Shown: positions 2,477-19,566 of the stretch, piece by piece
Layout: the number at the start of each line of letters is the position of its first letter
Numbering within the stretch: position 1 is the first letter of the stretch
DNA from: a virus
DNA: 32,973 nt
Virus record (IMG/VR): IMGVR_UViG_3300030106_007250
Span: 1-32,973 of that record
Direction: 5' to 3' (one strand)
Position numbers and translations under genes: made by a program
The notes under the pieces: generated by a model
Database searches by the model: none
The model's input: only the letters and a program-made list of their open reading frames with translations
What the model was told of the DNA's origin: nothing

Positions 2477-2500
2477 GCGATATAATGCTTCATATAAAGA

Positions 2501-2530: not shown

Positions 2531-2531
2531 A

Positions 2532-2560
2532 TTGATATTTTATAAAAATTTTACTATCAT
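2532..2560 (+). promoter_or_regulatory. Sigma70-like promoter for the connector genes
   Basis: TTGATA (2532-2537), a 17-nt spacer and TATCAT (2555-2560) each match the sigma70 consensus at 5 of 6 positions. They lie directly between the capsid terminator and the next gene. The predicted start site, 6-8 nt after the -10 box, falls at 2566-2568, on the ATG itself, so the transcript would be leaderless. A short ATG-TTA-TGA frame at 2561 is not a gene. Confidence 0.6.
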
Positions 2561-2565
2561 ATGTT

Positions 2566-3018: not shown

Positions 3019-3021
3019 ATA

Positions 3022-3510: not shown

Positions 3511-3511
3511 T

Positions 3512-3958: not shown

Positions 3959-4599
3959 TGGCTGGGGGAAAATTTATGTCGGTGTCAAAGCCCGTGGTGA
4001 CCATAAACGCCAAGGAGCTTTTGAGAGAGTTAACTGTAGATAGCCCAAACCATAAAAGAATGGGCATGGCCATAAGATCGGTCATAGAACCCAAAATACA
4101 AGAGAGACAAAAAGAGTTACAGCAGAATTTTGCATCTCATCCAATCACTATTGAGTTAAACGCAGGGCCAAGAGCTTCAAACACTAGTGGGACTTTAGGT
4201 GGGTATGGTAACCTTTTTTCTTTTATAGGATTTTCTTCTGGAGATCGTCCCACAGAAGTAATATCTCAGATATTTAAGGAAAAAATTAAATTCAAAGTTA
4301 GAAGAAAAAACAATAGAGGTCAATATACGGTTACATTCTTTATACCATCTGTTGATGAGATATATGGATTAACCCCGATACCTTGGATGACTGGCAAAAG
4401 CTGGGCGCAAAGCATAGAAGAGGGCGGTTTAACCAACTTGGGTCAATATCTGTTTAGCAGTTCGGGATTTGGTGGGTCTAGCTCTGGGACGGGTATACAG
4501 GTCAAAAATAGATCTTCTAGTGTAAGTTTTAGTAGGACTCCATATATTGAGAAATTAATACAAAATTTTACAAAAAGATTATTGAGATTAGATAAATGA
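3958..4599 (+). CDS. Putative neck / tail-completion protein
   Basis: This 213-residue protein overlaps the previous gene by 1 nt and the next by 4 nt. The ATG at 3958 gives MAGGKFMSVSKPVVTINAK; an alternative start lies six codons later. The N-terminal part is helical (MAIRSVIEPKIQERQKELQQ). The middle has a Gly/Ser-rich linker, a basic strand (KIKFKVRRKNNRGQYTV) and a Trp-containing loop (IPWMTGKSWAQSIEEGGL). The C-terminus is Ser-rich and ends with a basic helix (YIEKLIQNFTKRLLRLDK). This layout recalls HK97 gp10-type neck proteins, which also combine a helical N-terminus with an Arg-rich end, but the match is not certain. Its place before the tail tube gene supports a neck or tail-terminator role. 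Confidence 0.55.
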   Translation: MAGGKFMSVSKPVVTINAKELLRELTVDSPNHKRMGMAIRSVIEPKIQERQKELQQNFASHPITIELNAGPRASNTSGTLGGYGNLFSFIGFSSGDRPTEVISQIFKEKIKFKVRRKNNRGQYTVTFFIPSVDEIYGLTPIPWMTGKSWAQSIEEGGLTNLGQYLFSSSGFGGSSSGTGIQVKNRSSSVSFSRTPYIEKLIQNFTKRLLRLDK

Positions 4600-5480
4600 A
4601 GGCTCAGTTTGACCAGAATATTTTATCCAGTTTCTACCTATGGTTTGAAAACCGTTTATTAGGTAGTTCTGCGAAAGCTTATAAAACAGATTTAAGCAAT
4701 GCTTTTACTTCTGGGTCTTTTCCTGATGTCCCGCCTAGCCATATTGCTTTCCAAGGAAAATATAGATCATTGGTTGGTGAATATGGAGTAGACCAACCTA
4801 ACTCTGGATTTTTTTTAAATAATGCTTTTATTAGTGGTAATTATGATCAAAACGGCGGGGTCTTTACAGATTATGAAAATGGCAGGTTAATTTTTCCGAA
4901 AGCTTCTGGAGCTTCTATAGCTGGTAAGGAATTGACTGCGAATTCGACAGTAAAGGAAGTAAATACCTATATTACAAATGATACAGACGCGCAAATAATC
5001 CTCCATTCTGACTTTAAGGATAGCGCAACAGAACTACCGTATCAATATGGCAAAACTGGGGAGTATGATGAAACAACATATTTTTTACCTGCTTGTTTTA
5101 TATCTGTAGCCTCCTCTGATAACAAAGAATTTTCTTTTGGGGGAGAGGAAGATACCAGAACCAGAATGAGGGTAATGGTCCTATCTTTCGATAATTACAC
5201 ACTAGATTCTGTTCTTTCTCTATTCAGGGATACAGTCAGAAGAGATATTACGCATATTCCGTATGAAGACTTTCCGTATGGGTTTTCCTTTTCAATTAAA
5301 GATTTCCCCTACAGTTACGACAATTTAGTTGATGCTCAGTCTAGCCCAGTCAAATCGCATATTGAGAGCGTTTCTGTGTCAAAAATAGTCTCAGAAAGAA
5401 TCAGGGAAAATTTAAATAAAAATATCTCAATTGGCTATATAGACTTTGAATTATGCACTTATCGTTTCCCTAGACTCTAA
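4596..5480 (+). CDS. Putative tail-completion / tail-terminator protein
   Basis: This 294-residue protein overlaps the previous gene by 4 nt (ATGA) and is the last gene before a gap with regulatory motifs and the tail tube gene. It begins MKAQFDQNILSSFYLWFENR, a helix typical of tail-terminator proteins, and has a large central Gly/Ser/Asn-rich insert (about residues 50-130). It continues with a beta segment (TRMRVMVLSFDNYTLDSVLS), then an aromatic stretch with repeated DFPY elements (YEDFPYGFSFSIKDFPYSYD), and ends with IGYIDFELCTYRFPRL. The beta-helix-beta ends suit a ring protein of the neck, but no family signature is clear. The insert makes it longer than usual tail terminators (about 130-180 residues). 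Confidence 0.5.
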   Translation: MKAQFDQNILSSFYLWFENRLLGSSAKAYKTDLSNAFTSGSFPDVPPSHIAFQGKYRSLVGEYGVDQPNSGFFLNNAFISGNYDQNGGVFTDYENGRLIFPKASGASIAGKELTANSTVKEVNTYITNDTDAQIILHSDFKDSATELPYQYGKTGEYDETTYFLPACFISVASSDNKEFSFGGEEDTRTRMRVMVLSFDNYTLDSVLSLFRDTVRRDITHIPYEDFPYGFSFSIKDFPYSYDNLVDAQSSPVKSHIESVSVSKIVSERIRENLNKNISIGYIDFELCTYRFPRL

Positions 5481-5484
5481 ATCC

Positions 5485-5511
5485 GTGTAAGAAAGTGTAA
5501 ACATTTCACTT
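5485..5511 (+). promoter_or_regulatory. Tandem GTGTAA elements with dyad before the tail tube gene
   Basis: GTGTAA occurs twice, at 5485-5490 and 5495-5500, in the 46-nt gap before the tail tube gene. The second copy lies in a dyad of AAGTG and CACTT arms (5493-5510). The same hexamer lies before four other unit-starting genes, so this is probably a promoter element or operator. A downstream TTTAAT (5511-5516) could serve as a -10 box, but no matching -35 box is seen. Confidence 0.45.
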
Positions 5512-5526
5512 TTAATTTAAATTAAC

Positions 5527-6798
5527 ATGGCTTCTAGAACTAGAGTAATCTCACAAAGCAAAGCTGTTTATATAGCTCCCACAGGCACTATTAGTGGTTT
5601 GGGTGCTGTAGGAATGCACAAAACTGGCGTTATGCCACAACAGCTTCATCGCGTTGACACTTTCTCTTTTGATGTTGACATCGCTGGAGGGCGACAAGAC
5701 ATTAGGGAATTTGGGCAATTAGCGCGAATTGGAACAATCACACTTGGTGATTTAAACCCGTCATTTTCATTAGGTTATTATCTTGGTAACGGCGAAAATG
5801 AGGCGAACATAGGATTTAACCCACTTGGGCAAACAGCAGCAGGTTTACAAGATCAATTTATATCTGGTATTCTCTCAGAAGACCCGCAGAAAAGGGAGAA
5901 AAACTTGTTTGTGTTAACGGTAAAAGAGGGAGAAGATGCATTCGCTGCAACAAGTTCTTTTATTGATAACCCAACAGGAAGATTTACTACCGCCGAAAGA
6001 GCGGGACATGATGTCGTATCTTTTGGAAACTGCAACTTCGAAAGTTACAATGTGAATTTTGCTGTAGGAGAAATTCCAAGGGTAGATATTGAGGGAACAG
6101 CAGAGAACGTAACATTCGACACAACCAGTTCTGGATTGTATAATCCATCACTTAACAAAGAAGGTGGACGAGCAGATACTGGGCAGTTTATGCTTGGAAC
6201 TCCAACAACTGGAAACATGGATGTTCTTGTGCTTAGGCCAGAAGATGTGACTCTTAGTTTTGACAACACCTCCTTTACCTTTGGTGGAACCGACTTAAGT
6301 GACATGCATGTTCAAAGTGCTTCTATTGAAGTTCCTCTTTCAAGGACTCCTATTGAGGCTCTTGGTTCTGCTAAAGCAGTAGCCAAGCCGTTAGACTTCC
6401 CAATTAACGTCACAATGAATGTTAGTGCGTTACTGAAGAATTTCAGTGCAGGTCAAATTGACAAAATTCTAACTGGTGCTGCTGGTAACGAGACTACGAA
6501 CATTACCCTTAAAGTGAAGGGCGACGATGGGGCGCATAGGCATATCTATACAATGCAAAAAGCAGTGATGGACTCGCAAGGTTTCTCACAAGGGCTAGAT
6601 GATAACGAGACTCTTGATCTTGTCTTCTCAACTCAAATTGGAGGTGTGAACCAAACTGATCAAGGATTCTTCTACTCTGGTGCAGCAGGAGCAACGAGGG
6701 ATAAATACTCTGCCACTGCCGCCAGTGATGTCTTCCAACAGGGTTTCTTATACTTTAAGAACAACAGTAAGGGCAAGTATTCCGCTTCGGACGGTTAA
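5527..6798 (+). CDS. Major tail tube protein
   Basis: This 423-residue beta-rich protein starts its own unit, between GTGTAA elements and a strong terminator, and has GC-richer codons like the capsid gene, as expected for the second most abundant virion protein. It seems to consist of two tube-like halves. The N-terminal half has HRVDTFSFDVDIAGGRQDI followed by a REFGQLARIG strand. The C-terminal half has SIEVPLSRTPIEALGSAK, then INVTMNVSALLKNF and NITLKVKGDDGA. The C-terminal half is clearly paralogous to the 282-residue protein encoded next (shared TP-x3-LG strand, a K-x-KDxDGA-like strand and an LDDNxT motif). The ATG is preceded by an AT-rich leader without Shine-Dalgarno sequence. It is longer than most siphoviral tube proteins (about 150-250 residues), which fits a two-domain form. 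A sheath protein was considered, but no sheath features are seen. Confidence 0.7.
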   Translation: MASRTRVISQSKAVYIAPTGTISGLGAVGMHKTGVMPQQLHRVDTFSFDVDIAGGRQDIREFGQLARIGTITLGDLNPSFSLGYYLGNGENEANIGFNPLGQTAAGLQDQFISGILSEDPQKREKNLFVLTVKEGEDAFAATSSFIDNPTGRFTTAERAGHDVVSFGNCNFESYNVNFAVGEIPRVDIEGTAENVTFDTTSSGLYNPSLNKEGGRADTGQFMLGTPTTGNMDVLVLRPEDVTLSFDNTSFTFGGTDLSDMHVQSASIEVPLSRTPIEALGSAKAVAKPLDFPINVTMNVSALLKNFSAGQIDKILTGAAGNETTNITLKVKGDDGAHRHIYTMQKAVMDSQGFSQGLDDNETLDLVFSTQIGGVNQTDQGFFYSGAAGATRDKYSATAASDVFQQGFLYFKNNSKGKYSASDG

Positions 6799-6820
6799 TA
6801 CTTTGTTAAAATATCAACAG

Positions 6821-6850
6821 AAAAGCCTCGCAGAAATGCGGGGCTTTTTT
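6821..6850 (+). terminator. Rho-independent terminator after the tail tube gene
   Basis: A 12-bp stem (6821-6832 with 6837-6848) closes a GAAA tetraloop (6833-6836). The 3' arm runs into a six-T tract (6845-6850). Apart from one T-G wobble the stem is Watson-Crick. It begins 22 nt after the tube stop codon. Loop and overall design match the terminator after the capsid gene. Confidence 0.92.
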
Positions 6851-6864
6851 GTGTAAACTATTAT
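6851..6864 (+). promoter_or_regulatory. GTGTAA element before the second tube-like gene
   Basis: GTGTAA (6851-6856) directly abuts the T-tract of the terminator and lies 8 nt before the ATG at 6865. TATTAT (6859-6864) touches the start codon and is too close to be the -10 box of a transcript containing the whole gene. If GTGTAA is a -10-like element, transcription would start about 2 nt before the ATG. Confidence 0.4.
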
Positions 6865-7713
6865 ATGCCAGATAGGATACATTCTAGCGACATCCAACTT
6901 TTTGTGGATGACGCAAGAGTTCCAGCCGTCACAGCCGTTGATGTTAACTCCTCTAAAGGTGTGACAGACATTCAAAGGCTGGGGACTTCTCATGTTGTTG
7001 ACAGGGTGTTAACGGCTAATCAATCCTCTACTGTTAATATAAGTATAAATTTAACTACTGGAAATACAGGTGCTGAACCTATTTATACCTATCAAGAAAT
7101 GGGTTCTGGGTTTCTTTCTACAGGAAACTTTAATCTAAAAATAAAAGACAAAGTTGGGGTTACGACTGTTTCTGGAGGTTCTTTGACAAGCTACTCAATA
7201 GACGGTTCTGTGGGAGATATTGTAAAGGGGCAAACATCATATGTGGGCGATGGGGCTATATTTACGTCTGCTGGAGCATTGACTGATAATGATGCCTCAA
7301 ATGATATATTTGACGGATTCTTTAGGCCAAAAGATATAGAAATAACCAGCACACATGAAAAGGAGGGGATTAGCACAGCTAGTTTCAATATCCAAGATTT
7401 CTCCATATCTGTCTCTATGGAAAAAACTCCTGTCACTAGATTGGGGACTAGGGTTCCTAGATTTAGATATCCGACAATGCCAGCTAATGGCAGTTTGTCA
7501 TTTAATGCAATTAAAAATCAAGTTACTGGTTTAGATTTGTCTAGTCTTATTTGTGATAGCGGCGTAATTAAAATTAAATTAAAAGACCAAGATGGAGCTT
7601 CTGTAATGGAGTTTGATAATAGTGGTTGTTGCCTAGAAACTGTTGATGAATCAACTTCTCTAGATGATAATACAACAGTAAGTTTTTCTTACTATTTCCC
7701 AATAATGAAATGA
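6865..7713 (+). CDS. Tail tube-like protein (paralogue of the major tail tube protein)
   Basis: This 282-residue protein repeats the design of the 423-residue tube protein before it. The N-terminal half has VTAVDVNSSKGVTDIQRLGT, matching the DI-x2-(F/L)G strand of the tube protein. The C-terminal half has FSISVSMEKTPVTRLGTR, a downstream strand IKIKLKDQDGASVMEF and SLDDNTTVSFSY, aligned with the same elements in the tube protein. It probably forms a specialised ring of the tail, such as a tube initiator or a ring close to the tip, or a minor tube subunit. It starts after the tube terminator and overlaps the next gene by 4 nt (ATGA). The role beyond tube-like fold is inference. Confidence 0.6.
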   Translation: MPDRIHSSDIQLFVDDARVPAVTAVDVNSSKGVTDIQRLGTSHVVDRVLTANQSSTVNISINLTTGNTGAEPIYTYQEMGSGFLSTGNFNLKIKDKVGVTTVSGGSLTSYSIDGSVGDIVKGQTSYVGDGAIFTSAGALTDNDASNDIFDGFFRPKDIEITSTHEKEGISTASFNIQDFSISVSMEKTPVTRLGTRVPRFRYPTMPANGSLSFNAIKNQVTGLDLSSLICDSGVIKIKLKDQDGASVMEFDNSGCCLETVDESTSLDDNTTVSFSYYFPIMK

Positions 7714-8099
7714 TGACCACGGGAGAGATAGCCAATTATAAAAACGCTGTTTATGATTTAGATATAACAGTTAATGATCCAGCGAATGGTTTTAGGCTTG
7801 ATTTAATGGAAACAGGGTCTTCTAGCCAAAGGACTTTAGTCACTTTTTCTGGCTATCAAGGATATCTCTTTGATCAGAGCGGCAATTTCTTTGGCGGCTA
7901 TGACAGTGGTGTTCCGTTTGAGTTAGTTGTTCAATACGATCACACAAACAAAACTTTTTCGTATTATCATGATACTGTTTTAATGGCTAACGGACTAGAT
8001 ATTACGGGGTATGTAACTGATGGAAAAGTCAATGTTGTTCGCTTCGATGGGTATAACAACGGCTCTTTATCATTCTCTGTTAGCGGAGTAAAAAGTTGA
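7710..8099 (+). CDS. Small beta-rich tail-region protein, unknown function
   Basis: This 129-residue protein is translationally coupled to the gene before it through a 4-nt ATGA overlap; the start is a double ATG (MMTTGEIANYKNAVYD). It consists of alternating aromatic and polar strands, such as LVVQYDHTNKTFSYYHD followed by GLDITGYVTDGKVNVVRFDG, a pattern seen in concanavalin/LamG-like jelly rolls (strand, turn with D-x-T-x-K, strand). It is too short for a complete LamG domain of about 180 residues, so it may be a minimal jelly roll or decoration of the tail tube. I know no specific family. The stop is at 8097-8099, and the promoter of the next unit starts inside its last codons. Confidence 0.5.
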   Translation: MMTTGEIANYKNAVYDLDITVNDPANGFRLDLMETGSSSQRTLVTFSGYQGYLFDQSGNFFGGYDSGVPFELVVQYDHTNKTFSYYHDTVLMANGLDITGYVTDGKVNVVRFDGYNNGSLSFSVSGVKS

Positions 8100-8123
8100 T
8101 TTTATTCTAAATTTTAATATAAT
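8096..8123 (+). promoter_or_regulatory. Sigma70-like promoter for the tail chaperone genes
   Basis: TTGATT (8096-8101), a 16-nt spacer and an exact TATAAT (8118-8123) precede the GTG start at 8130 by 6 nt. The predicted transcription start is 8130 itself, giving a leaderless mRNA with a GTG start. Confidence 0.6.
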
Positions 8124-8129
8124 ATTCTT

Positions 8130-8936
8130 GTGAAAGAAGTATATTCATTTGATGTAAAGAGGCAGATAGTCAAAGAGGTTCCTTATATGAAAAAGACCAA
8201 GGACGGGGAAGAGGTTGAAGCTATTAAAAAATCAAAAAAAACAATTAAAAATAGAGTTGTTTTTGCAAAGCCTAATATTTCTGCAATTGAGGATGCCGAG
8301 TTCTTTTATGGGCAAAAATTCAACGAGTATATTAATGCTGGGTTTTTAACCAAGGCGATGTTGGCGAAAAAGATGGGAGACAACGGGGGTTTAAACTCTG
8401 AGGTCGCGTCAGACAGGATGGCAGATATTGTTAAGAAGAACATGGCTGCTTCCAAGGTTATTGAATTTTTTGCTGGAGCCAAAGATCTAACTGAAGAGCA
8501 AAAGCAGCAACTAGAAGAAGCAGAAGAAGACTTTATAGCTACGCAAGCGGAGGTTCATGAATATGAAGTTGCGCTAGCTTCTCAATTCAATCAAACCGCC
8601 GATGCAAAAGCGGAGCAAAAACTAATAGAATGGCTTGTTTTAAAATTTTCTTTTTATGAGGAGGAGGCAGAAGATAAGAAAAAACTATTCCCTCTCTTTG
8701 AGGGGGAGTCTTATGAAACGAAAAGAAACAGCATGATCATGCTTCAAGAATTAGAAGATGAAGATATTGAAGATGCTGTCTTGCATAAACTTAAAGCGGT
8801 TTTTGATAAGTCTTTTGATACTTTAATTAGGGTCGTTAGTATTTGGTATAACAAGCTAGGAACCGATCAAGAGTCTATAGATAAAGTATTAAAGGATCTG
8901 TTTAATGAGTCAGCAGACAAAGAAGAAGAAAAATGA
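8130..8936 (+). CDS. Putative tail assembly chaperone, first frame (G-like)
   Basis: This 268-residue protein uses a GTG start (MKEVYSFDVKRQIVKEVPYM) immediately after a TATAAT box, with no Shine-Dalgarno sequence. It is charged, helical and rich in Glu/Lys, with an acidic helix around LTEEQKQQLEEAEEDFIATQ and a C-terminus ending DKEEEK. The pair of overlapping genes directly before a tape measure gene is the standard place for tail assembly chaperones (G and GT in lambda), which bind the tape measure protein during tail assembly. Here the second frame overlaps by 32 nt. Both proteins are larger than lambda G and T (about 140 residues each). The family is not recognised; the role is inferred from order, overlap and composition. 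Confidence 0.5.
   Translation: MKEVYSFDVKRQIVKEVPYMKKTKDGEEVEAIKKSKKTIKNRVVFAKPNISAIEDAEFFYGQKFNEYINAGFLTKAMLAKKMGDNGGLNSEVASDRMADIVKKNMAASKVIEFFAGAKDLTEEQKQQLEEAEEDFIATQAEVHEYEVALASQFNQTADAKAEQKLIEWLVLKFSFYEEEAEDKKKLFPLFEGESYETKRNSMIMLQELEDEDIEDAVLHKLKAVFDKSFDTLIRVVSIWYNKLGTDQESIDKVLKDLFNESADKEEEK
8905..8936 (+). other. Overlap of tail chaperone frames, possible +1 frameshift site
   Basis: The first frame ends AAA-TGA (8931-8936). The second frame is +1 relative to it. A +1 slip at this AAA-TGA stop would continue directly into the second frame (GAT-TCC onward). The second frame also has its own ATG at 8905, with an AAAGGA-like sequence about 8 nt upstream, so simple re-initiation is equally possible. 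Confidence 0.35.
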
Positions 8937-9783
8937 TTCCTCCCAAGTTGATCTATTAGATATAACTCGCGGTTACAGCATTCTTTCTCTTGAGGATAAG
9001 AAATACTATTTTAGACATCCCACGGTTCTCCAGACACTAGAGAATGAGTCTCTCTTTTTTTCTGACATAGAGGAGTCGGCTAAATCTGGGATTAAAACAG
9101 AAGAAGAAATTCTTTCTCGCGCAATTGAATTGGGGTCTTGGTCTAAAGCAGAAGGGGAAAAAATAGAATCCCTGAAATGGATGTTAAAAAAATCCATTAC
9201 TGCCTTGTCAAAAATTGAAGATCCAAAACAAAGGGAGCTTTTTAACAAGCAGATAAAAGATCAAGAAAAAGAGCTACAGGATATCAAAGATAAAAGAAGC
9301 AAACTTGTTGAGTTTAGTGCAGAACACCTTGCAGGTGTTAAGAAGACTAAAAGAATTTTAACTAATTGTTTGTTTAAGGATAAAGAGTTTACAGAGGGTT
9401 TAGATAATTTAAATGTGGTGGCAGCTTTGTTGTTTGCCTCATACGCAAGGTTTCTTTCTAAAGAAACTATACTAAACGCATCTTTCCACGGAGGTTTTTT
9501 TGATTTGTATGTTCCTCAAAATTCTAATCCATTAGCTTTATTTGGTAAAACTTTTTATGATATTACTCTTTTTCAAAAAAGTCTTATATCTCTTTCTAGT
9601 AGTTTATTGAATAAGATGAAAAACACTAAAATTCCAGATGAAATCTATGGAGATCCTCTCAAAATGCTGGAATATGAAGAGAAAGAAGAGAAGGACTCAA
9701 AGGTAAGTCATGGGGTAGGTGATTTAAAAGCAAAAATGGCTATGAGGGGTGGAAAGCTGAAAGCAGAAGACTTTTTAAGCTGA
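8905..9783 (+). CDS. Putative tail assembly chaperone, second frame (T-like)
   Basis: This 292-residue protein lies between the first chaperone-like gene (32-nt overlap, different frame) and the tape measure gene. It starts MSQQTKKKKNDSSQVDLLDI. The middle is a long charged helical region (residues about 85-140, with RELFNKQIKDQEKELQDIKD) that should form a coiled coil. After that come hydrophobic helices (LNVVAALLFASYARFLSK; LISLSSSLLNKM) and a basic end (DLKAKMAMRGGKLKAEDFLS). The helical, partly hydrophobic content suits a chaperone that coats a hydrophobic tape measure. It may be made separately from its ATG or as an extension of the first frame by frameshifting. No enzymatic motif is seen. 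Confidence 0.45.
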   Translation: MSQQTKKKKNDSSQVDLLDITRGYSILSLEDKKYYFRHPTVLQTLENESLFFSDIEESAKSGIKTEEEILSRAIELGSWSKAEGEKIESLKWMLKKSITALSKIEDPKQRELFNKQIKDQEKELQDIKDKRSKLVEFSAEHLAGVKKTKRILTNCLFKDKEFTEGLDNLNVVAALLFASYARFLSKETILNASFHGGFFDLYVPQNSNPLALFGKTFYDITLFQKSLISLSSSLLNKMKNTKIPDEIYGDPLKMLEYEEKEEKDSKVSHGVGDLKAKMAMRGGKLKAEDFLS

Positions 9784-9785
9784 TA

Positions 9786-9800
9786 AGTGTAATTTACACT
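9786..9800 (+). promoter_or_regulatory. Perfect palindrome GTGTAA-T-TTACAC before the tape measure gene
   Basis: Positions 9786-9800 read AGTGTAA, one T, then TTACACT: seven-base perfect dyad arms around a single base, ending 2 nt before the ATG at 9803. The arms contain the GTGTAA element found before other units. It is too short to be a good terminator (no T-tract, AT-rich), so it is more likely a protein-binding operator, a promoter element, or an RNA hairpin that masks the start codon. Confidence 0.5.
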
Positions 9801-9802
9801 AT

Positions 9803-12800
9803 ATGGCTACAAGTCTAAATGCATCCCTAAATGTAAGCCTTAATCCGCAAAGTTTAAATGCTTCTACAAAGCAGATATCACAAGCTTTAGGCAGGATTAC
9901 TGGGCAAGCTTCTGAGTTCCAGAAATCTCTGGATGCTTCGACTGCCCGTGTTTTTGCATTTGGAGCTACTACTGCCGTTTTGAACGGAGTAACACAATCA
10001 TTTAAAAAGTTAGTTTCGACAACAATTGAAGTTGAGAAAAGGTTAATAGAGATTAACTCTATTTTTCAAGCTACTGATGTTCAGTTTAATAAATTTAGAA
10101 ACTCAATATTTCAGGTAGCCAAAGAAACAGGGCAAGCTTTTAATACTGTAGCAGAAGGTGCTGCTGAGTTAGCTCGACAAGGTTTAAGTGCAGAAGAAAC
10201 TGCCAAGAGACTCAAGGCTTCTCTCGTTTTAACTAGAATATCAGGTTTAGATGCAGAAAAGTCGGTTAAAGCTCTTACGGCGGCAATTAACGGTTTCACA
10301 TCGGCTGGATTAAACGCGAACCAGATAGTCAACAAAATGGTTGCGGTTGATACCGCTTTTGCTGTTTCAGCCCAAGACTTAGCAGAGGCTTTTAGTCGAG
10401 CGGGTTCTACAGCGGAAGATGCGGGTGTTAGTTTTGATCAATTGCTTGGTCTTGTTACGGCTGTAGAGCAAAAAACAGCTAGGGGAGGTGCGGTTATTGG
10501 TAACGCATTTAAATCAATTTTTACAAGACTCCAAAGGGGAACAACAATTGAAGAGCTTAAAGAATTAGGAGTTCAGATTGATGCGTCAATGAGCGGGGTT
10601 CAAAAACTCAGTGCTCTTTCTAATGCTATAGAAAACATAGCAGACCCTACAGTTGTTTCTAAGATAAAAGAATTAGCTGGTGGAGTCTTCCAGATAAACG
10701 TGGTTAGTGCCGCATTAAAAGATTTAAGTTCTGACACTTCTATATTCCAAAAAGCCGCTACCACAGCTTCTAAAGCCACTAATGAAGCTTTCGAAAAAAA
10801 TGAGGCTTTGAATAAAAGCTTGGCTTCACAAATTAACGCTTTAATACAAGGTGTTACTAGTTTGGCTGAAAAGATAGGCAAACTAACATTCGGGCCTCTT
10901 TTAGAAAACTTAGTAGGTATAGCTACAAAGTTTACGGAATTTTTAGATAAAGCTTTAGATCCAGAAAAAGGTAATATTTTTATAAAAGGTATCTTTAAGG
11001 CAATAGGAGCTTTCATGGGTGGTCCTGCTGTTGTTTTAGTTACTGCTGCGTTTGCAAAAATAGCAAAGTTGGTTGCTAAGTTCGCTATTGAAGGTTTGAG
11101 ATCCCTTTTCGCGATGGGGACTCAGGCAGAGAAGATAAAGAACATTGAGGCGGGTCTTGTTGGTCTTTTGCAGAAAGATGAAAGTCTCCGCAATATGATT
11201 CTGAGCACTACTGCTACTCAGGCTCAAAAAGAACAAGCGGTATTAGCTGCGATACAAAGAGAAAACCAACTGCTGACAACTCAAGCTGCTCTTATGAGAC
11301 AGATAGCTACTTCTGCTGCCGCTAGAGGCGTAGGAGGTTTCAGCGCAGGAACTGGGATATTTGGCGGTAAAAAAGGTAAACCTTTTGCTGTCGGTGGTAG
11401 AGTTACTGGAGGATCAGGAACAAAAGATGATGTTCCAGCGATGCTTACTGCTGGTGAGTTTGTCATGCAGAAAAGTGCGGTTAATAAATTTGGCCAGCCT
11501 TTCATGGAGGATATAAATCAGGGTAGGCTTAGTTTTAATAGAGGTGGATTTGTCCCTAATTATGCAAAGTTCGCTCGGAAGGGGGAAGGCAAAACGCTTA
11601 GAACAAGCACTAGCACTAAAAATTTAGAGAAGGATCTAGAAGCTGGCAGATATGATAAAGATGATGCCACAGCAGCGAAAGCTTTAATAGCAAAAAGAAA
11701 AAAGGGGAAGAAAGGTGCTACAAAGCCCATAGATGTTCTCGCTAGTAGTTTCGCATTTATAGTTCCTTCTCCGAGTGCAGGTAGAGGCGCTAATTCCTAC
11801 AAAAAGGGCCAAACTAAAGTAGGTGGAGTTTGGTATCCCTACAAAATAACAGATAGCATTAAAACTTTTTCTCCAAGTATTAAAGGATTAGATGCTAAAG
11901 CAGAACCCTATGATTCAAAAATCGAAAAAAAGATTTCTAGCTCAGTCACTGACGCAGCAACACAATATGCAAATTTAATAACAGTCCCCAAGGGTGTCAA
12001 CAAAGCAGATAGAGGAGATATAAAAAGGAGACTGGGGCAAGGTGGGCAAAGGGGCGCTTTTGGCGCTATAAGAGGTGCGGTCGGAGCCGCGTTTGAGGCT
12101 GCTGTATTTTCTGCTTTAGGTTTAGATGAGTTTACAGCGGCAAAAGGTGGTGCGGATTGGGATGTAAGAAATTTAAACACTGTAGGTAATGGAGAGCTTG
12201 CCCAACTACTTGGGACTGGAGCAATGGTTCATGGTGACATGAAGGTTGGTTCATCACCAGATACAGTAGCAAGTTTTGTAGGTAAAATACTTAGGCATCT
12301 CGATAGATATGAACCCGAGATGGAGAGGGTTAGAAGGGAAAAAAAAGCTGCCAAAAATAAAAAAGCTAAAGGAGGTATTATTCCTAACTACAATGCAAGA
12401 AGAGGTTATGGGGTTCCAGCTTCTCAAGTAAGAGTTCATTTAGATAAAAATAAGAATGCCTTTGCGGTAACTAATACTTCAGATGAGCGCCCTAATTCTA
12501 TCGAGGAGAGAGCGGCTTTAGACGATGCGATAGGAAGAGAGAGAGCGGGCATACCAATGGCAAGAGGGGGATTTGTTCCCAACTATAGATTTGGTGGTAT
12601 CAAGAAAATTTTTGGAGGTGGAAAAAAGAAAAAATCTTCTAGCGGTGGAGGAGATATTCAACAAGCAGAAGGTGGAATGGGTTCTTTTGCAACTAATTTG
12701 CTATTGTTGGGGACTATGTTGGGAACAGGTAGTGCTGCTGTGGAACAAAACACTGTTTCTCTTGATACAGAAAGGGAAGAAAGAATTGCAAATGCTCATG

Positions 12801-14956
12801 CAGCAGAGAAAGAAATTGGAGCAAGGATGAAGCTTATTGCTTCTATAGAGGCAGATATTTCCGCAAGGAAAGCGAGTCAAGGTGGTGGAGGAGGATTGAA
12901 GAGCATGTTAACATTTGATAATGCTTTAATGGCCCTATCAATAGGAAGTATAGGTGCGCCTCTTCTGAAAAAGTTTGGTGGGAGTAAAATGGGGCAAGGA
13001 ATTGCTGGGAGTAAAATGGGGCAAGGTGTCGGAGGCTTTTTTCAGGGAAGCTCAAAGAAAGGAGTTGGGGGATTCGTGGCACGAAACGCTCCAACTAGAA
13101 ATTTTGCGACAGCACAAAGAATGGGTAAAGGTGCTTCGATTGGTGTCAGGGGCGCGGGAACAATTGGTGCTGCTATTGGAGCTATAGAGCTTTTGCCTAA
13201 ATTATTTGGAGACGAATTAACAAAACACGAAAAAAAGGTAGCAACGGGTAAAACAATAGGGCAAGTAGGTGGGGCTATAGCTGCTGGCGCTGCTATAGGT
13301 AGCGTTGTCCCTGTGGCTGGGACAATAGCTGGTGCGGTTGTCGGTCTTTTGGCAGGAGTGGGAGGAGCACTCCTTGGGGGTTTTTTAGGAGAAAAAGGAA
13401 CTGAGGCAGTTTTAGGAGATGACGAAGAGAAGGGAGAGTCTAAGGCAGATAAACGGCGACGAAATGTGCAAAATCTAGTTTCTAGAAGGGTCGATCAGGT
13501 GGGAAAAATAGGGTTTGATGAAGAGACTTTTGGGGCGAAAGCTCAAGCTGGTGCTGATATAATATTTCAACAAGCAGGAGGTGAGAAAGATGCAGAAGCG
13601 GGAGAGAAAGCGGTTAATCAAGCTCTAGAAGATTATACTACAGCAAGACAAGATTATGCGGAGGCTGTTATGGGCCACTTAGCGGCTGACGTAAATGATG
13701 AAAAAGCATCACAAGCGGCACATGAGAAGATGATTAAAGCGGAGCGTGAGTATGCTAAAGCGGCAATGCATCTAACTCAGTCTACTCATGATAACCAAGC
13801 AGATAGAGATGCAAACGATGCCTTATTTGATGAATTAACCTCAAAAAGAAACTCTTTACTTGAGCGATCAAATGCAAATCAGGAAAAATTAAATAAAGCT
13901 TTATTAGAAACAGAGGTAGCCCTACTTGAACACAGGAATAACATGGCAGCAAGGCTTGCTATGGGAGGAAATTTGCAGGGTCCATTTGGAGCGGCTGTTC
14001 AAGATGCCAATCAGTTTGGTGCAGACATGGCGGGCATCAATGATGCTAGGAATGTGAGAAATCAGGAGCAGAACAAACTAGATGCATTTTTAAGAGCGAA
14101 CACGGACAAGAAGACGGGCGAGTTTACTGGCGATGTTGGTCAACGTGGAGTATTTGAAGCGGCAGTTGCGAAAGCTGGCATTGATTTCAAAAGTAAAGTT
14201 GGAGAGTCTGCTACAAGACTTCAAAACTTAATTGGTAGTCTTAAAAAACAACAGGAAGACCTCAAGACCAAAAGGGCAGATATAAAAGCCCAAGAGGATC
14301 AAAATAAAATAGACTTTGGAGGAAAGTTCCAAGGAACTGGATTCAACAAAGTTGATCCTACTTTCTTAAAAGCTCAAATGGATGAGTTACAGAAAACTTT
14401 CTTAGATCCAAAAGCAACAGAGCACGATAAGGCAAAGTTATTAGAAAACTTTAATCCTCAAGACTTAGGCTCAGTAACTGAGGTTATTAAAGGTTTAGGT
14501 AGTCCTGAGCTTGTCGAAGCTATAAACAGCTTTAAGTCAGCAGGAGTAAACAAAATGAAAGATGCTGGCTTCTCTGACGAGCAAATAAAGAATCTTCAAG
14601 AGGAAACTGGTGTTCTAAAAACAGATGAATTAGCTGGTGTTGATAAAGAAATAGAAGCAGTAAAGGCTAGGATTTTAGGGGCTGAAAAAGCATTTAAACA
14701 ACTAGAAACAAATACTGACACAGCATCAGTCGCAAAAGAAATGAAAGATTTAAAAGCCGCAATGGAGGCAGCAGCAGGAAGTTTTGATGGGGTAACAAAT
14801 TATATTGATGCTCAAGTAGATGCCGCAAAAGAAGTTACTAAAGTTGTAGAGGGCAATAATGAAATTGTTAAAAGTGCGACAAAAATACAAGAAGACCTAA
14901 GCGGAAGACTGGCTAATGTTGAAAAGGAGCTTGGACAGATGAAAAGGAATCCATAA
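9803..14956 (+). CDS. Tail tape measure protein with embedded nuclease-like cargo domain
   Basis: At 1717 residues this is the longest gene in the window. It sets tail length and is threaded inside the tail tube. The N-terminal third carries a TP901-type tape measure core (TGQAFNTVAEGAAELARQGL, then GLDAEKSVKALTAAINGFT, and AVEQKTARGGAVIGNAFKS, with a following LQRGTTIEELKELG). A hydrophobic segment lies at about 400-427, then the common tape measure motif GTKDDVPAMLTAGEFVMQ. Next come three GGxxPNY motifs (residues 581, 857 and 922) enclosing a domain with E765, D785/D787 and D812-M-K814, suggestive of a PD-(D/E)XK nuclease fold. A glycine-zipper membrane segment follows at about 1150-1197 (GGAIAAGAAIGSVVPVAGT). 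The last 500 residues are a charged helical region and end KELGQMKRNP. The start ATG follows a GTGTAA palindrome and has no Shine-Dalgarno sequence. Confidence 0.9.
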   Translation: MATSLNASLNVSLNPQSLNASTKQISQALGRITGQASEFQKSLDASTARVFAFGATTAVLNGVTQSFKKLVSTTIEVEKRLIEINSIFQATDVQFNKFRNSIFQVAKETGQAFNTVAEGAAELARQGLSAEETAKRLKASLVLTRISGLDAEKSVKALTAAINGFTSAGLNANQIVNKMVAVDTAFAVSAQDLAEAFSRAGSTAEDAGVSFDQLLGLVTAVEQKTARGGAVIGNAFKSIFTRLQRGTTIEELKELGVQIDASMSGVQKLSALSNAIENIADPTVVSKIKELAGGVFQINVVSAALKDLSSDTSIFQKAATTASKATNEAFEKNEALNKSLASQINALIQGVTSLAEKIGKLTFGPLLENLVGIATKFTEFLDKALDPEKGNIFIKGIFKAIGAFMGGPAVVLVTAAFAKIAKLVAKFAIEGLRSLFAMGTQAEKIKNIEAGLVGLLQKDESLRNMILSTTATQAQKEQAVLAAIQRENQLLTTQAALMRQIATSAAARGVGGFSAGTGIFGGKKGKPFAVGGRVTGGSGTKDDVPAMLTAGEFVMQKSAVNKFGQPFMEDINQGRLSFNRGGFVPNYAKFARKGEGKTLRTSTSTKNLEKDLEAGRYDKDDATAAKALIAKRKKGKKGATKPIDVLASSFAFIVPSPSAGRGANSYKKGQTKVGGVWYPYKITDSIKTFSPSIKGLDAKAEPYDSKIEKKISSSVTDAATQYANLITVPKGVNKADRGDIKRRLGQGGQRGAFGAIRGAVGAAFEAAVFSALGLDEFTAAKGGADWDVRNLNTVGNGELAQLLGTGAMVHGDMKVGSSPDTVASFVGKILRHLDRYEPEMERVRREKKAAKNKKAKGGIIPNYNARRGYGVPASQVRVHLDKNKNAFAVTNTSDERPNSIEERAALDDAIGRERAGIPMARGGFVPNYRFGGIKKIFGGGKKKKSSSGGGDIQQAEGGMGSFATNLLLLGTMLGTGSAAVEQNTVSLDTEREERIANAHAAEKEIGARMKLIASIEADISARKASQGGGGGLKSMLTFDNALMALSIGSIGAPLLKKFGGSKMGQGIAGSKMGQGVGGFFQGSSKKGVGGFVARNAPTRNFATAQRMGKGASIGVRGAGTIGAAIGAIELLPKLFGDELTKHEKKVATGKTIGQVGGAIAAGAAIGSVVPVAGTIAGAVVGLLAGVGGALLGGFLGEKGTEAVLGDDEEKGESKADKRRRNVQNLVSRRVDQVGKIGFDEETFGAKAQAGADIIFQQAGGEKDAEAGEKAVNQALEDYTTARQDYAEAVMGHLAADVNDEKASQAAHEKMIKAEREYAKAAMHLTQSTHDNQADRDANDALFDELTSKRNSLLERSNANQEKLNKALLETEVALLEHRNNMAARLAMGGNLQGPFGAAVQDANQFGADMAGINDARNVRNQEQNKLDAFLRANTDKKTGEFTGDVGQRGVFEAAVAKAGIDFKSKVGESATRLQNLIGSLKKQQEDLKTKRADIKAQEDQNKIDFGGKFQGTGFNKVDPTFLKAQMDELQKTFLDPKATEHDKAKLLENFNPQDLGSVTEVIKGLGSPELVEAINSFKSAGVNKMKDAGFSDEQIKNLQEETGVLKTDELAGVDKEIEAVKARILGAEKAFKQLETNTDTASVAKEMKDLKAAMEAAAGSFDGVTNYIDAQVDAAKEVTKVVEGNNEIVKSATKIQEDLSGRLANVEKELGQMKRNP
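11543..12589 (+). repeat. Three GGxxPNY motifs in the tape measure protein
   Basis: The motif occurs at residues 581-588 (GGFVPNYA, nt 11543-11566), 857-864 (GGIIPNYN, nt 12371-12394) and 922-929 (GGFVPNYR, nt 12566-12589). Each is preceded by basic or small residues (NR, AK, AR). They bracket a 268-residue nuclease-like segment and a 57-residue segment. I infer they are domain borders, perhaps processing sites or docking points in the folded tape measure. Confidence 0.75.
11567..12370 (+). other. Embedded PD-(D/E)XK-like nuclease domain in the tape measure protein
   Basis: This is the segment between the first two GGxxPNY motifs (residues 589-856). The core lies at about 740-830: a glycine-rich helix with GAVGAAFEAAVFSALGL holding E765, then a strand with GGADWDV (D785, D787), and 25 residues later a strand HGDMKVG (D812, K814). 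The order Glu-helix, Asp-strand, D-x-K strand matches PD-(D/E)XK nucleases. It precedes a basic helix (RVRREKKAAKNKKAK). The assignment is by motif only; structure prediction would decide. Confidence 0.5.
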
Positions 14957-14959
14957 GAC

Positions 14960-16501
14960 ATGGCATCTTTAATAGTAAATAATGTTCTATCTTCATCGTT
15001 GGATGTAACCTACGATTATCAAGATACCGTAGAGCTTTTTGCATATACAGTAAAAGGTAGTTATACAATAGATGTTTCTGATATAAATATTCAGCTAAAC
15101 GATACTACTTTAATAGCTGGCAGAACAGCCATAACAGACGCTTACGCCCGCCCGAACATAACAGCAAGAATAGGTGCTGATGATTATATTAATGGCAGAA
15201 TAACAAGTTATAGTTTTGATGCTAACACATTGGTTGGCAAAGAGACTGTTTCTATAACAATAGAAGAGTCAAGAAGACTAGATGATTATAGCTCTTCTCA
15301 ATTTGCAAAATATATACCCAATCCTCACGCGCTAGCTAGCTTTTCCGAAAATTATACTTTCAGCAGAAATGGTGCGACCTACTCATCAAATAGAAATATT
15401 TCTATATCTTACAAGCAGATGGCGGGAGATCAGTTTCTCGACAATGCTAGAACATTTTTAACTAATTATTATTTCGCTAATAGGCCAAGTCTTGGGTATC
15501 AGGAAGATGGTATATCAGAAAACGCAAAAATAGATAAGAATTTTAAAGGGTTAATTAGCGAGACTTACGATATATTAGGCTTAAGTGTTTCTTTGTCAGA
15601 AAAAGTAGACTCTTCATTCATTGATGAACCTAACAATGTCAGCAAGCAAGAAACTCAATCAATAAACATTGATGAGAGGGGCTATAAGACAAAGAGAATA
15701 AATTTTAATTTAAAATCCTTAAGAGAAGACTCTCAGAATGTTCTGAGTAAGGCGATGGCTCAGATCATAGATCAAGCCAAGACTGATAACGAGGCAGAGT
15801 TTGGCACTCCTTTCTCTATATCGAAAACAATAAACAAACACGGCGATGAAGGCACCCTCAACTTATCGTTCACTACAGACCCTAAGAAATCTCAGGATGA
15901 CACGGTTTCTTATTCTGGCGCAGAGAATAAAGCTAAAAAATTTAAAGAGTATGTATTAACCATCTCTTATACGTCTAAAGGCAAGACAAATTTTGAAAAA
16001 TTCGAAAACTCTAAAAAGTCTTGGGTAAAAGAACAGTCTACTTATCCGCAAAAAATTAAAAGATTATTTCACCCAGTTTCTGACTTTTTTGAAAAAAGTA
16101 GAAGCACTAGTTTTGATAAAGCAGACGGGAAAGTGAATGAGAATGTGGTATTTACCACAGACCCAGCATATAATACAACAGACGATGGTCTTTTAAAATT
16201 GAAAAAAACTCTCTCCAAAACCCATCAGATAAATAGAGTGGGAAAATTTTTAGATTTATCAAATTTAGAGGAACAAATTAGTTTCAAGGCTTTAAAAACA
16301 GTCGGTCAAGCCTCGGTGAACGCGGAGGCAACAGTTAGTCAAAGTATGGGATTATATGAAGCAAAAAGAATTTTAGAATCAAAAACAGAAGAGTTTAAAG
16401 ATTTTGTTAATGAAGATGTAGTTCATATGATTAATGATACCGTCACCATTTCTCTTGGCAGGGGTCAGGCGCGTAGGACAATGCAATTTTTATTTTTATA
16501 A
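14960..16501 (+). CDS. Putative distal tail / baseplate protein 1
   Basis: This 513-residue protein begins 3 nt after the tape measure stop. In siphoviruses this is the place of the distal tail protein. It is beta-rich at the N-terminus (LIVNNVLSSSLDVTYDYQDT, then ITARIGADDYINGRITSYSF). In the middle (about residues 246-305) it has a repeat also found twice in the next gene, with the signature FSISKTINKHGDEGTLNLSF. The last 170 residues contain Lys-rich helical parts (KKFKEYVLTISYTSKGKTNF). An AAGGA sequence 11 nt upstream is a weak ribosome binding site. I do not recognise a specific family; the virion role follows from position and beta content. Confidence 0.55.
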   Translation: MASLIVNNVLSSSLDVTYDYQDTVELFAYTVKGSYTIDVSDINIQLNDTTLIAGRTAITDAYARPNITARIGADDYINGRITSYSFDANTLVGKETVSITIEESRRLDDYSSSQFAKYIPNPHALASFSENYTFSRNGATYSSNRNISISYKQMAGDQFLDNARTFLTNYYFANRPSLGYQEDGISENAKIDKNFKGLISETYDILGLSVSLSEKVDSSFIDEPNNVSKQETQSINIDERGYKTKRINFNLKSLREDSQNVLSKAMAQIIDQAKTDNEAEFGTPFSISKTINKHGDEGTLNLSFTTDPKKSQDDTVSYSGAENKAKKFKEYVLTISYTSKGKTNFEKFENSKKSWVKEQSTYPQKIKRLFHPVSDFFEKSRSTSFDKADGKVNENVVFTTDPAYNTTDDGLLKLKKTLSKTHQINRVGKFLDLSNLEEQISFKALKTVGQASVNAEATVSQSMGLYEAKRILESKTEEFKDFVNEDVVHMINDTVTISLGRGQARRTMQFLFL

Positions 16502-18130
16502 ATGTCAGAAAATATTACATATGGTTCTTATACTTTTCCATCTCCCACTCCTTTTGTTGGTTATGGAGTAAACCCTGTGTATATTGGTGGCAAGGTTGAC
16601 CACATTATCGAGTCCGTAGAGTTAGTTGGTAATTTAACTGGCTCAAATTTGAGTGGTTTACATTTGCAAAAGATGCAAATGATGAGCGGGTTGATGTCTG
16701 AGTTTCAAAATTTAACAATTACTCACAAGGACGGAACCACTGGTTATAATTTTGCAAAACCTGAAGGTATTTCTTTTGGTGATTCAGATTTAACTACAGT
16801 TTTACCTTACTCTGCTTCTTTTACTTGTTATGAGTCGGGGTCTTTTTCTGAGTTTGTTGGGATTACCGATCCTGTTGATACTTGGTCTTATAATCAGGCA
16901 GATAGAAAAATCACAGATGTATCCCACACGGTATCAGCTAAAGGAGTTAAAGTGGGTCCATCTAGTCCTCTTCAAAACGCAATTGATTTTGTAACTGGGA
17001 GAGTGACTGGCTGTAGAAATATCAGTGTATTCCAAACAGGTGTTTCAAGTGGAGATTTTGTCAAAAAGGCATTCCTCACCTCAAGAACAGAGGATATCAA
17101 CAGGGCTAATAACACTTACAAGATAACAGAAAATTATAAATATAACACTTATGAAGAAGGTTCTTTGACTGACTTTGGAGTGTTTACTTCTGATGTCCAA
17201 GTTGGTTTTGATAAAGATGCTGGATTAAAAGTAAATGTAAACGGAAAGATTCAAGGTGCCTTTGATGCCAATAAAAACAACGTAGCAGGATTGGTTACAA
17301 CAGGTCTTTTTACTTCAGGGCAAGCTACTGAGATGGCTTTGAATGCCGTAGCTTCTTCCTTGTCTGATTACGAAAGTGGTGCTTATACTTTTATTGATAA
17401 GGGGCCGAGAACAGCGAGTTACAATATAGACACTGGGACCAATACAATTTCTTTCTCATATGGATATTCTGATCCAAGCAATATAGATCAGGAGGGAGAT
17501 ATTTTGCACAAGAAAAAAGCAAGTATTGCCGCCTCTAAAGACAAATCCACTATTGATGTATCTATCAACGGGGAGATTGTATATAATGGTATGGGTAAAA
17601 TCATAGGAACTGGAGATCCAGCTACGGGCGAAAGATTTAAAGAGGTTGATGCTTTTTACAGTGGGGTAGAACAAAATTCTGGATTTTTAAATTTAGCAAT
17701 TGAAGCACTCCAAGATTTTAGAATGGATGCCACTGGTTATCATATTAGTGGGGATTATTTAAACGAAGTTCCTTTGACTAAGAGTATAAATAAAACTCCA
17801 GAAAATTCTACTATAAATTATTCTTTAACATTCGATAATAGAATAGATCTATCTTCTGGAACTCTCTCTGGTTTGACAATTGATATTACTGATAAAAAAC
17901 CACTACAGGTAAGCGGAATAGTTCCAAGTTTAGCTGGGTTTAGTAAGCAACTATTAATGAATAGAACTGCTGGAGAATATGGAGTAACTGCAAATTGTGA
18001 GTCTGATTCAGGTGATTTACAGCAGATGAAAAATGTGGTTAGTGGAAATATGACGGGCTTCTATACTTTCGAAGAAAGCAGTAGCATAAATAATGATACT
18101 ATTACTTTTAACACAAAAAGATATTATTAA
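16502..18130 (+). CDS. Putative distal tail / baseplate protein 2 with internal repeat
   Basis: This 542-residue protein starts directly after the previous stop (TAA-ATG without spacer) and has no Shine-Dalgarno sequence. The N-terminus (GSYTFPSPTPFVGYGVNPVY) is aromatic and Pro-rich. Two copies of a roughly 95-residue repeat follow, at about residues 241-325 and 350-447. Each has an opening strand (KVNVNGKIQG; DVSINGEIVY), a helix (LNAVASSLSDY; LNLAIEALQDF) and a closing strand with S-x-S-Y or YSLTFD. The second copy shares KSINKTPENSTINYSLTF with the previous gene. The remainder is beta-rich with SG turns, typical of tail tip proteins. It is probably a baseplate or tail-tip ring component. 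Family not known. Confidence 0.55.
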   Translation: MSENITYGSYTFPSPTPFVGYGVNPVYIGGKVDHIIESVELVGNLTGSNLSGLHLQKMQMMSGLMSEFQNLTITHKDGTTGYNFAKPEGISFGDSDLTTVLPYSASFTCYESGSFSEFVGITDPVDTWSYNQADRKITDVSHTVSAKGVKVGPSSPLQNAIDFVTGRVTGCRNISVFQTGVSSGDFVKKAFLTSRTEDINRANNTYKITENYKYNTYEEGSLTDFGVFTSDVQVGFDKDAGLKVNVNGKIQGAFDANKNNVAGLVTTGLFTSGQATEMALNAVASSLSDYESGAYTFIDKGPRTASYNIDTGTNTISFSYGYSDPSNIDQEGDILHKKKASIAASKDKSTIDVSINGEIVYNGMGKIIGTGDPATGERFKEVDAFYSGVEQNSGFLNLAIEALQDFRMDATGYHISGDYLNEVPLTKSINKTPENSTINYSLTFDNRIDLSSGTLSGLTIDITDKKPLQVSGIVPSLAGFSKQLLMNRTAGEYGVTANCESDSGDLQQMKNVVSGNMTGFYTFEESSSINNDTITFNTKRYY

Positions 18131-18132
18131 TA

Positions 18133-19566
18133 ATGAGTTCTGATGCTTTAAGTTTTAGTTTAGATGATACTTACGGAAGCAATACAAGGCTTCTAATTCA
18201 CTATGATTTTAATGCTGGCGCTGTTACAAGTGGCACAGCAGCAGCACAAGATGGTTCTTATTATTGGGGCTATATTCCAAATGGAACACCAGCAAACAAT
18301 ACTGGTCTTTGGAGTGGTAAAGTTTTAGATTCTCAAAGTCCCTCTATTGGAGGAGCTATTCAGAGAGTCACAGGAGATTTTTTAAGTGGGTCTATAGCTC
18401 GATTGGACGATTCTAATATAGAAGTTAATACTGCTGGATCGGCATCAATTAATTATAGCAGTCTCTCTGCTGTTTTTGATATGGAATTTACTGGGCAGCT
18501 TAATGACGCTGTGTTGTTTGGATCTCTGGAAAAAACATCTACGACTATAAACGGCGTTACATACACTGGGTCAAAAGGATTTAACTTTGGCATTACAAAA
18601 AGAGGTCAATTATTTTATCAAAGTTTTGATTCAAACGGGGATTTTATACACTCGTTTAAATCAACAGAGCTTTCTAGAAGAAATGTAATAGCTTTTTCTC
18701 ATGGGGAAACAAACATTGGTTTGCATAGGTTTGATATGTTGAATGGAGAGTATCATTCAGAATATTTAACCAGAAATGATTCTCCCAAAATGGCAGATAG
18801 TGATAGCTTTTTTATAGGCGGCTCTAAAAATTGGTATGAAAACCCAAACTCTACACAAGATGGCTCTTTTAAAACAAGCATACCTCTCTCTAGTGTTTAC
18901 ATAAATTCCTTTGCTCTTTTATCTGGAGAGACATCTCCTAGTTCTTTGTTTTCTATCGCAAGCGGGCTTGTTGGAGAATACTCTACCACCGAGATTCCAA
19001 GAATACTTGGTGAAAGACTTACTGGATATCAGCAAGAAATAATTTATAAAACTGGGATAACTGGCTATGACTATACTAGCACTGGAAGCATATCTTTAGC
19101 TACAGGTAGAAATATGTTTACTGGTAATTTCTTTGGTGCCAGCACTGTTAACACTGGAGAAGGAGATAGATACTTCCTCTATAGATCTTTTGATGATGCA
19201 TTGTCTGCAAGCGGAGTTAAAACATTTGTAAAAGAAGAAGTTGGTTATTTACATCCAAATTCTGGTTATCAATATTCTCCAACAGGAGAAAATGCTTTTG
19301 ATACATTAGGTCTACAAAATGTAGATGGTGCTGTAACAGAATATATTGAACAAAGGGGTATATCGGGCGCAGCTACGGTTGGTGTTACTCTTTTCGGTTC
19401 TAGATTTTTAACGGGCGTTACATCTGGAATAAGTGGTGTAAGGCAGGTTCCTAAATATGAAACGACTATAGAAAGAGAAGCTAGAATCGAATCTGGTATT
19501 TCTGTATCGGTTCCTGCGAACTTATTTAAAAAGAATTTTATTTACTACTTGGGAGAAAGATTATGA
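18133..19566 (+). CDS. LamG/concanavalin-like tail protein
   Basis: This 477-residue protein lies 2 nt after the previous stop and overlaps the next gene by 4 nt. Residues about 15-265 read as a concanavalin-like jelly roll. They contain an opening strand TRLLIHYDFNAG, a middle set of strands (VFDMEFTG, VLFGSLE, FNFGITKRGQLFYQSFDSNG, VIAFSHGETNIGLHRFD) and a closing strand set FFIGGSKNWYENP and SSVYINSFALLSGE. The motif of short strands separated by G-x-T/S-G turns is the LamG pattern, seen often in tail fibre and baseplate proteins that bind carbohydrates. The C-terminal part (from about 290) has no assigned domain and ends with hydrophobic IYYLGERL. A host-receptor or glycan-binding role is plausible but inferred. 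Confidence 0.55.
   Translation: MSSDALSFSLDDTYGSNTRLLIHYDFNAGAVTSGTAAAQDGSYYWGYIPNGTPANNTGLWSGKVLDSQSPSIGGAIQRVTGDFLSGSIARLDDSNIEVNTAGSASINYSSLSAVFDMEFTGQLNDAVLFGSLEKTSTTINGVTYTGSKGFNFGITKRGQLFYQSFDSNGDFIHSFKSTELSRRNVIAFSHGETNIGLHRFDMLNGEYHSEYLTRNDSPKMADSDSFFIGGSKNWYENPNSTQDGSFKTSIPLSSVYINSFALLSGETSPSSLFSIASGLVGEYSTTEIPRILGERLTGYQQEIIYKTGITGYDYTSTGSISLATGRNMFTGNFFGASTVNTGEGDRYFLYRSFDDALSASGVKTFVKEEVGYLHPNSGYQYSPTGENAFDTLGLQNVDGAVTEYIEQRGISGAATVGVTLFGSRFLTGVTSGISGVRQVPKYETTIEREARIESGISVSVPANLFKKNFIYYLGERL

Follow-up and report, generated by a model that had tools for sequence, protein, structure and literature searches.

A motif-bounded exchangeable cassette, probably nuclease-like, in the tape measure protein of uncultured marine phages

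The tape measure protein of a group of uncultured marine phages contains a cassette between GGxxPNY-type motifs that is replaced as a unit, keeps a characteristic set of residues and is under purifying selection. The order of these residues and the predicted structures make it likely that the cassette domain is a very divergent PD-(D/E)XK-type nuclease. On the whole we lean towards a modular enzyme cassette, probably a divergent nuclease of this kind, that would be carried into the host by the tape measure protein. An earlier reading of one member, i.e., a nuclease-like domain inside the tape measure protein (the first-pass annotation), is partly supported.

The tape measure gene and its repeated motifs

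The window, i.e., the whole stretch of 32,973 nucleotides analyzed here, is the first part of a 79,668-base virus record (IMG/VR IMGVR_UViG_3300030106_007250). The features discussed are listed below, with coordinates in the window unless a contig is named.

9803..14956, + strand: tape measure protein gene, 1717 aa (open reading frame; Pfam and PHROG matches)
10115..10681, + strand: TP901-type tape measure core PhageMin_Tail, residues 105-293 (Pfam, 2.6e-24)
11543..11563, + strand: motif 1, GGFVPNY, residues 581-587, left cassette border (DNA homology with relative L002 ends at 11566)
11567..12370, + strand: exchangeable cassette, from motif 1 to motif 2 (type differs from that of L002; non-aligning stretch)
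11714..12361, + strand: nuclease-like domain as modelled, residues 638-853 (AlphaFold2 model and type-A alignment)
12095..12097, + strand: E765, predicted helix acidic residue (sequence, alignment, pattern test)
12155..12163, + strand: D785-W-D787, predicted strand acidic residues (sequence, alignment, pattern test)
12236..12244, + strand: D812-M-K814, DxK motif (sequence, alignment, pattern test)
12371..12391, + strand: motif 2, GGIIPNY, residues 857-863, right cassette border (homology restarts here in other pairs)
12392..12565, + strand: short conserved module (found in most relatives)
12566..12586, + strand: motif 3, GGFVPNY, residues 922-928 (sequence)
24790-26529 and 28733-29821, - strand, with L211:630-2174 and L211:8565-9758: sugar-modification genes

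The PhageMin_Tail match (2.6e-24) is above the Pfam cut-off and identifies a TP901-type tape measure core, and the N-terminal part of the protein matches many PHROG tape measure families. The three GGxxPNY motifs of the first-pass annotation are present in this reading frame, starting at residues 581, 857 and 922, and the translation confirmed E765, D785/D787 and D812-x-K814 at their positions between the first two. A degenerate DNA pattern for GGxxPNY occurs three times, against 0.10 expected from shuffles. The modelled domain (residues 638-853) includes a conserved N-terminal strand, the last residue of which is P655. An intein was considered and discarded, as no splice residues were seen by eye at the cassette borders.

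The module between motifs 2 and 3 (consensus VPxSxIRVHxDxxGxPLAVTNxRDEPxGLxDAIxRERxG, also with the variant TNTRDEP) is conserved far above the cassette and is present in two copies in L039. Elsewhere, the phage encodes sugar-modification genes (glycosyltransferases, a carbamoyltransferase and a C-methyltransferase) and, among its replication genes, a separate PD-(D/E)XK nuclease gene (L211:16374-17411; PDDEXK_1, 2.4e-15).

Cassette types, conserved residues and predicted fold

Relatives were collected from IMG/VR viral contigs, i.e., eight near ones and then about 60 more via N-terminus alignments. Among the nine proteins first compared, the first 500 residues are 74-99% identical; in the segment between the motifs, identity is 7-51% in most pairs for the first half and 21-66% for the part with the putative catalytic residues. 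Among related tape measure proteins, ~65 lie on contigs that extend to the slot; it is filled in all of them, and none is empty. At least eight sequence types of cassette occur among them. Five types were defined by profiles, i.e., A (n = 31), B (n = 9), C (n = 5), D (n = 4) and E (n = 3), and together cover 52 of 52 proteins reaching the slot; 13 further proteins carry types A, B and C as well as F, G and H, the last three assigned by motif and position only. Two tape measure proteins with 24-26% identity (L147 and L149) have neither the motifs nor the domain, so the cassette is confined to this branch and is not general to tape measure proteins.

The types share a common order of residues, i.e., an acidic residue in a predicted helix, then a D within a strand or adjacent to one, and finally [D/E]xK. 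Examples are FEAAV...GGDFDV...DYK (type A), FESII...LDV...GDFKNS (type B), FESAI...PFDFE...ADAKRS (type C), IQELGL...FDLN...GEVKGS (type D) and FESGV...MDFRG...IEAKHS (type E). Across the 30 rows of the type-A alignment, the D-x-D keeps its two D residues without exception (100%), the E is conserved in 97% (D in a single row) and the K in 97%, the exception being a row that ends at a contig end; the D of DxK is conserved in 87% and is otherwise E. A regular expression for the full pattern, composed after the sequences were known, matches 43 of the 52 slots; it also matches 7% of slots after shuffling and, in the same proteins, 2% of N-terminal and 9% of C-terminal windows. Profile comparisons between types with hhalign placed the conserved residues in register (A-B, 3.4e-18; A-C, 3.3e-7; A-D/E, 2.4e-5); type A detects the others clearly, and B, C and D/E detect one another weakly or not at all.

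The domains of the window and of L005 were modelled with AlphaFold2 (pLDDT 80.4 and pTM 0.73 for the window; pLDDT 82.5 and pTM 0.73 for L005). Both models have N-terminal strands and helices followed by a long helix (E), a short strand (D), a helix, a strand (DxK) and a helix, and the L005 model adds one strand after the last shared helix. Compared with the alpha-beta-beta-beta-alpha-beta of the PD-(D/E)XK reference core, the models read helix-strand-helix-strand-helix(-strand). The predicted secondary-structure order is compatible with this core, lacking an evident first strand, and the stretch with D787 in the window model, where the D strand is short, is of low confidence (pLDDT ~56-63). 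The PD-(D/E)XK residue order (helix E, strand D and (D/E)xK on the next strand) is conserved in all types. An ordinary tube-filling helix, the alternative that the first-pass annotation had set against its own proposal, is refuted, since the conserved residues are the acidic ones and K814 and the models are mixed alpha/beta.

The probable family assignment draws on the residue pattern between the motifs and on the order of helix E, strand D and DxK in both models; the predicted fold itself found no match. Foldseek returned nothing significant for either model (best E 0.5 in BFVD and 1.3 in PDB), and a VIA structure search gave Z ≤3.9 for both, with helical stretches, given no weight, in the top rows. 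In a profile comparison, hhalign against the Mrr, NERD and UPF0102 families of PD-(D/E)XK proteins was not significant and not clearly above RNase H and NUDIX controls, and in the alignments inspected the active residues were not paired; this family test is weak, because Mrr and NERD fail to detect each other in it. The cassette domain has no Pfam or PDB sequence match. A single hit in a PDB sequence search was judged chance, and Pfam searches with the 31 type-A members returned chance matches only, including a discarded one to the restriction enzyme ThaI at 0.17.

Outside the group, neither the cassette nor the extra L052 and L190 domains (described below) had a match in annotated phages and plasmids, and a viral scan with the window domain as a single sequence returned nothing. 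In 198 bacterial genomes of the class of G002 the cassette is absent, and a pattern scan was likewise negative. Tape measure genes of this family are present in two metagenome-assembled genomes labelled Flavobacteriaceae and Flavobacteriales (L209 and L210), and these phage-like genes are a hint at a Flavobacteriales host.

Some relatives have more GxxPN[FY] motifs and more segments between them; the protein of L052 (2787 aa) has eight motifs. The P-loop segments between GxxPNF motifs are located as follows.

L052:6685-7251: P-loop segment, GPSGAGKST (AAA_33 at 0.0014, below Pfam's cut-off)
L042:8756-9241: similar P-loop segment, GPAGSGKST

L052 also has a second E...PDIT...EAK pattern. Apart from these, L191:9875-10336 contains IFDVDDTL after a GLVPNL motif and resembles HAD phosphatases (Pfam HAD_2 at 0.2, not significant), and L190:11138-11806 and L190:12359-12919 contain GxG..K..DLHGxN..VDxG or IDTG, kinase-like by eye and with no Pfam match. 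Second patterns of the acidic/xK kind, perhaps nuclease-like, were seen by eye in segments between other motifs at L190:9638-10246, L192:10847-12025 and L052:5989-6456. The window has one enzyme-like domain, and L052, L190 and L192 appear to have several, by motif only. We treat the extra enzyme-like segments of L052, L042, L190 and L191 as leads, not results.

Exchange of cassettes between phages

The closest relative, L002, is 98% identical to the window protein over the first 500 residues and, at the DNA level, 92% identical over the N-terminus of the tape measure gene, yet the two carry cassettes of types A (window) and B (L002). Their DNA alignment spans about 20 kb (2417-22965) except for the cassette region, with 89.6% identity over 2417-11566 and 86.5% over 12518-22965. 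The only non-aligning stretch is 11567-12517, within which a 36-base match (12355-12390) lies at motif 2. Two other pairs likewise break at both motifs, i.e., L090/L093 (96% in the N-terminus; types C vs F) and L060/L065 (86%; types C vs A). Judged from these alignments, all three pairs are recent swaps.

The same borders recur across the group. Motif 1 is clear in 137 pairs that differ in type, which are not independent because many share lineage. In 67 of them the left homology break falls no more than ten residues from where motif 1 ends, mostly at 0-2 residues; in the remaining pairs homology fades before motif 1, as expected for older pairs. On the right side, homology restarts within ten residues of motif 2 in 33 of 56 pairs. 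Where types A and D occur in one clade, a worn form of the motif, QIPRFN, at residue ~595 marks the border.

On a quick tree of the N-terminus, for which support values are approximate, the five types need 12 changes, so type does not track the backbone, and the starred branches alone require at least 10 changes for type A versus the rest. In this tree, old swaps between diverged backbones are as frequent as recent ones. Several pairs have cassettes far more alike than their backbones, with dS of 0.27-0.7 for same-type cassettes within backbones at 1.7-2.7 (L061/L065: 0.27 in the slot vs 2.69 in the N-terminus), which indicates that cassettes travel between backbones. The alignments, the N-terminal tree and the break positions together show a swap between the same motifs in related phages, one of the outcomes for which the first-pass annotation had proposed to look.

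For pairs of one type, the slot has a dN/dS of 0.05-0.48, below 1 in every case, indicating purifying selection on the domain despite its fast evolution, with values mostly 2-5 times those of the N-terminus. No immunity gene that changes with the cassette was found in the window/L002 pair, which aligns throughout 2417-11566 and 12518-22965; since no neighboring gene changes, this pair gives no sign of a cassette-specific immunity gene. Neither an immunity gene nor a DNA-modification gene linked to the cassette was found. Compared with polymorphic toxins, the exchangeable domain on a constant carrier is present, and in the window/L002 pair a covarying adjacent immunity gene is absent.

Possible delivery at infection and alternative explanations

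As discussed in PMC11126660 and PMC13277306, tape measure proteins are believed to exit the tail during infection and either to form the DNA channel or to contribute to it. The protein described here would, by the known fate of its kind, be ejected with or ahead of the DNA; because such proteins leave the tail at infection, the cassette, likely a very divergent, metal-dependent PD-(D/E)XK-type nuclease, would reach the host envelope or cytoplasm before phage gene expression. With less certainty, its substrate there may be nucleic acid of the host or of a competitor, and the diversity of types may reflect an arms race over the target or over host counter-measures. The motif DNA could provide the short homology for the recombination that exchanges cassettes. 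Cassette-specific immunity might be dispensable if the enzyme were inactive until ejection, if its target were absent from phage DNA, or if protection lay elsewhere. Delivery plus action in the host is, on our analysis, less likely than the nuclease assignment.

That cassettes are swapped at a short repeated motif suggests that the protein serves to deliver enzymes at infection. In its widest form, to which we give tentative credence, the tape measure protein would be a general platform for the nuclease and, in relatives, possibly for P-loop, HAD-like and kinase-like domains; these would sit between GxxPN[FY] motifs, recombine there and be injected as polymorphic host-directed enzymes without linked immunity genes.

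The cassette might instead be a folded, non-catalytic part that meets a variable host partner (e.g., an inner-membrane protein) as the DNA enters; the acidic residues and the lysine would then be conserved for binding metal or holding the fold. The tape measure protein of HK97 does interact with host membrane partners, and structure and profile searches have not confirmed a nuclease fold; however, E, D and [D/E]xK are kept by types with little else in common, as an active site would be, and the P-loop or DxDDT-like motif between the same motifs in some relatives hints at enzymes, so that we consider this explanation rather unlikely. Chimeric contigs joined at the conserved motif are far less probable still. 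Short repeats can give rise to chimeric contigs in metagenomes, but here the reading frame is kept across the joins, contigs with different metagenome identifiers (e.g., L012, L014, L057 and L070) show the same combination of backbone and cassette, and old swaps, between diverged backbones, occur as often as recent ones.

A serious rival is homing, since nucleases and exchange coincide at tape measure genes elsewhere: homing endonuclease genes often interrupt these genes in phages (PMC10448857). A self-spreading nuclease would cut tape measure genes with other cassettes during co-infection, repair would copy its own cassette in, and the cassette would persist by spreading rather than by use at infection. 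Movement between backbones with short flanking homology is in keeping with this. Homing elements are, however, expected to leave empty sites, and no relative that reaches the slot has it empty; the cassette is read in frame with the rest of the protein and shows no sign of an intron or intein, the domains it replaces are of the same kind, and relatives also hold segments of other kinds between the motifs. We regard self-spreading as improbable, somewhat more so than a structural role. The homing endonucleases of PMC10448857 resemble the cassette in associating a nuclease coding sequence with tape measure genes and exchange borders; they differ in that they are encoded separately or within introns and do not form part of a virion protein's reading frame.

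The reading we prefer, an enzyme cassette delivered by the tape measure protein, has several partial counterparts. Polyvalent proteins of phages and conjugative elements (Iyer et al. 2017, PMC5512222) are likewise large, multi-domain, thought to enter with the DNA, and carriers of enzymes for early conflict; the terms "tape measure" and "REase" are absent from the main text, and no tape measure protein with motif-bounded swappable nuclease cassettes was found there. MuF polymorphic toxins of temperate phages (Jamet et al. 2017, PMC5576092) also join variable toxic domains to a constant phage-encoded part, with a MuF carrier, a variable C-terminal toxin and immunity proteins, whereas here the variable domain sits inside its carrier, a tape measure protein, and a linked immunity gene was not found. 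Tme of the contractile injection system of Streptomyces davawensis (PMC11126660) is a tape-measure-like protein with an active endonuclease domain, but it belongs to a domesticated injection system, not a phage, and its nuclease is C-terminal and EndA-like, with DRGH and H-N-N motifs rather than a D/E/K active site. Sle1-type effectors of actinobacterial contractile injection systems (PMC13277306) similarly combine a constant tape-measure-like part with structurally diverse functional domains, which are C-terminal and not of a phage; the word "nuclease" is absent from that text. Tape measure proteins were also flagged as mosaic by sequence in a survey of mosaic phage proteins (PMC10684548), which could not confirm recent mosaicism in them, whereas some of the swaps described here are recent and have defined borders. 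The open-access literature searched contained no motif-bounded exchangeable nuclease-like cassette inside a phage tape measure protein.

The cassettes yield a set of very divergent nuclease-like domains without a Pfam match, and their compatible borders form a natural series for studying how such proteins are rebuilt. They also pose a concrete question, i.e., whether the tape measure protein brings an active enzyme to the cytoplasm. If the delivery reading is true, the "ruler" protein would be loadable with exchangeable cargo at defined borders, and another part of the particle, beside internal head proteins and MuF, would deliver variable enzymes into the cell.
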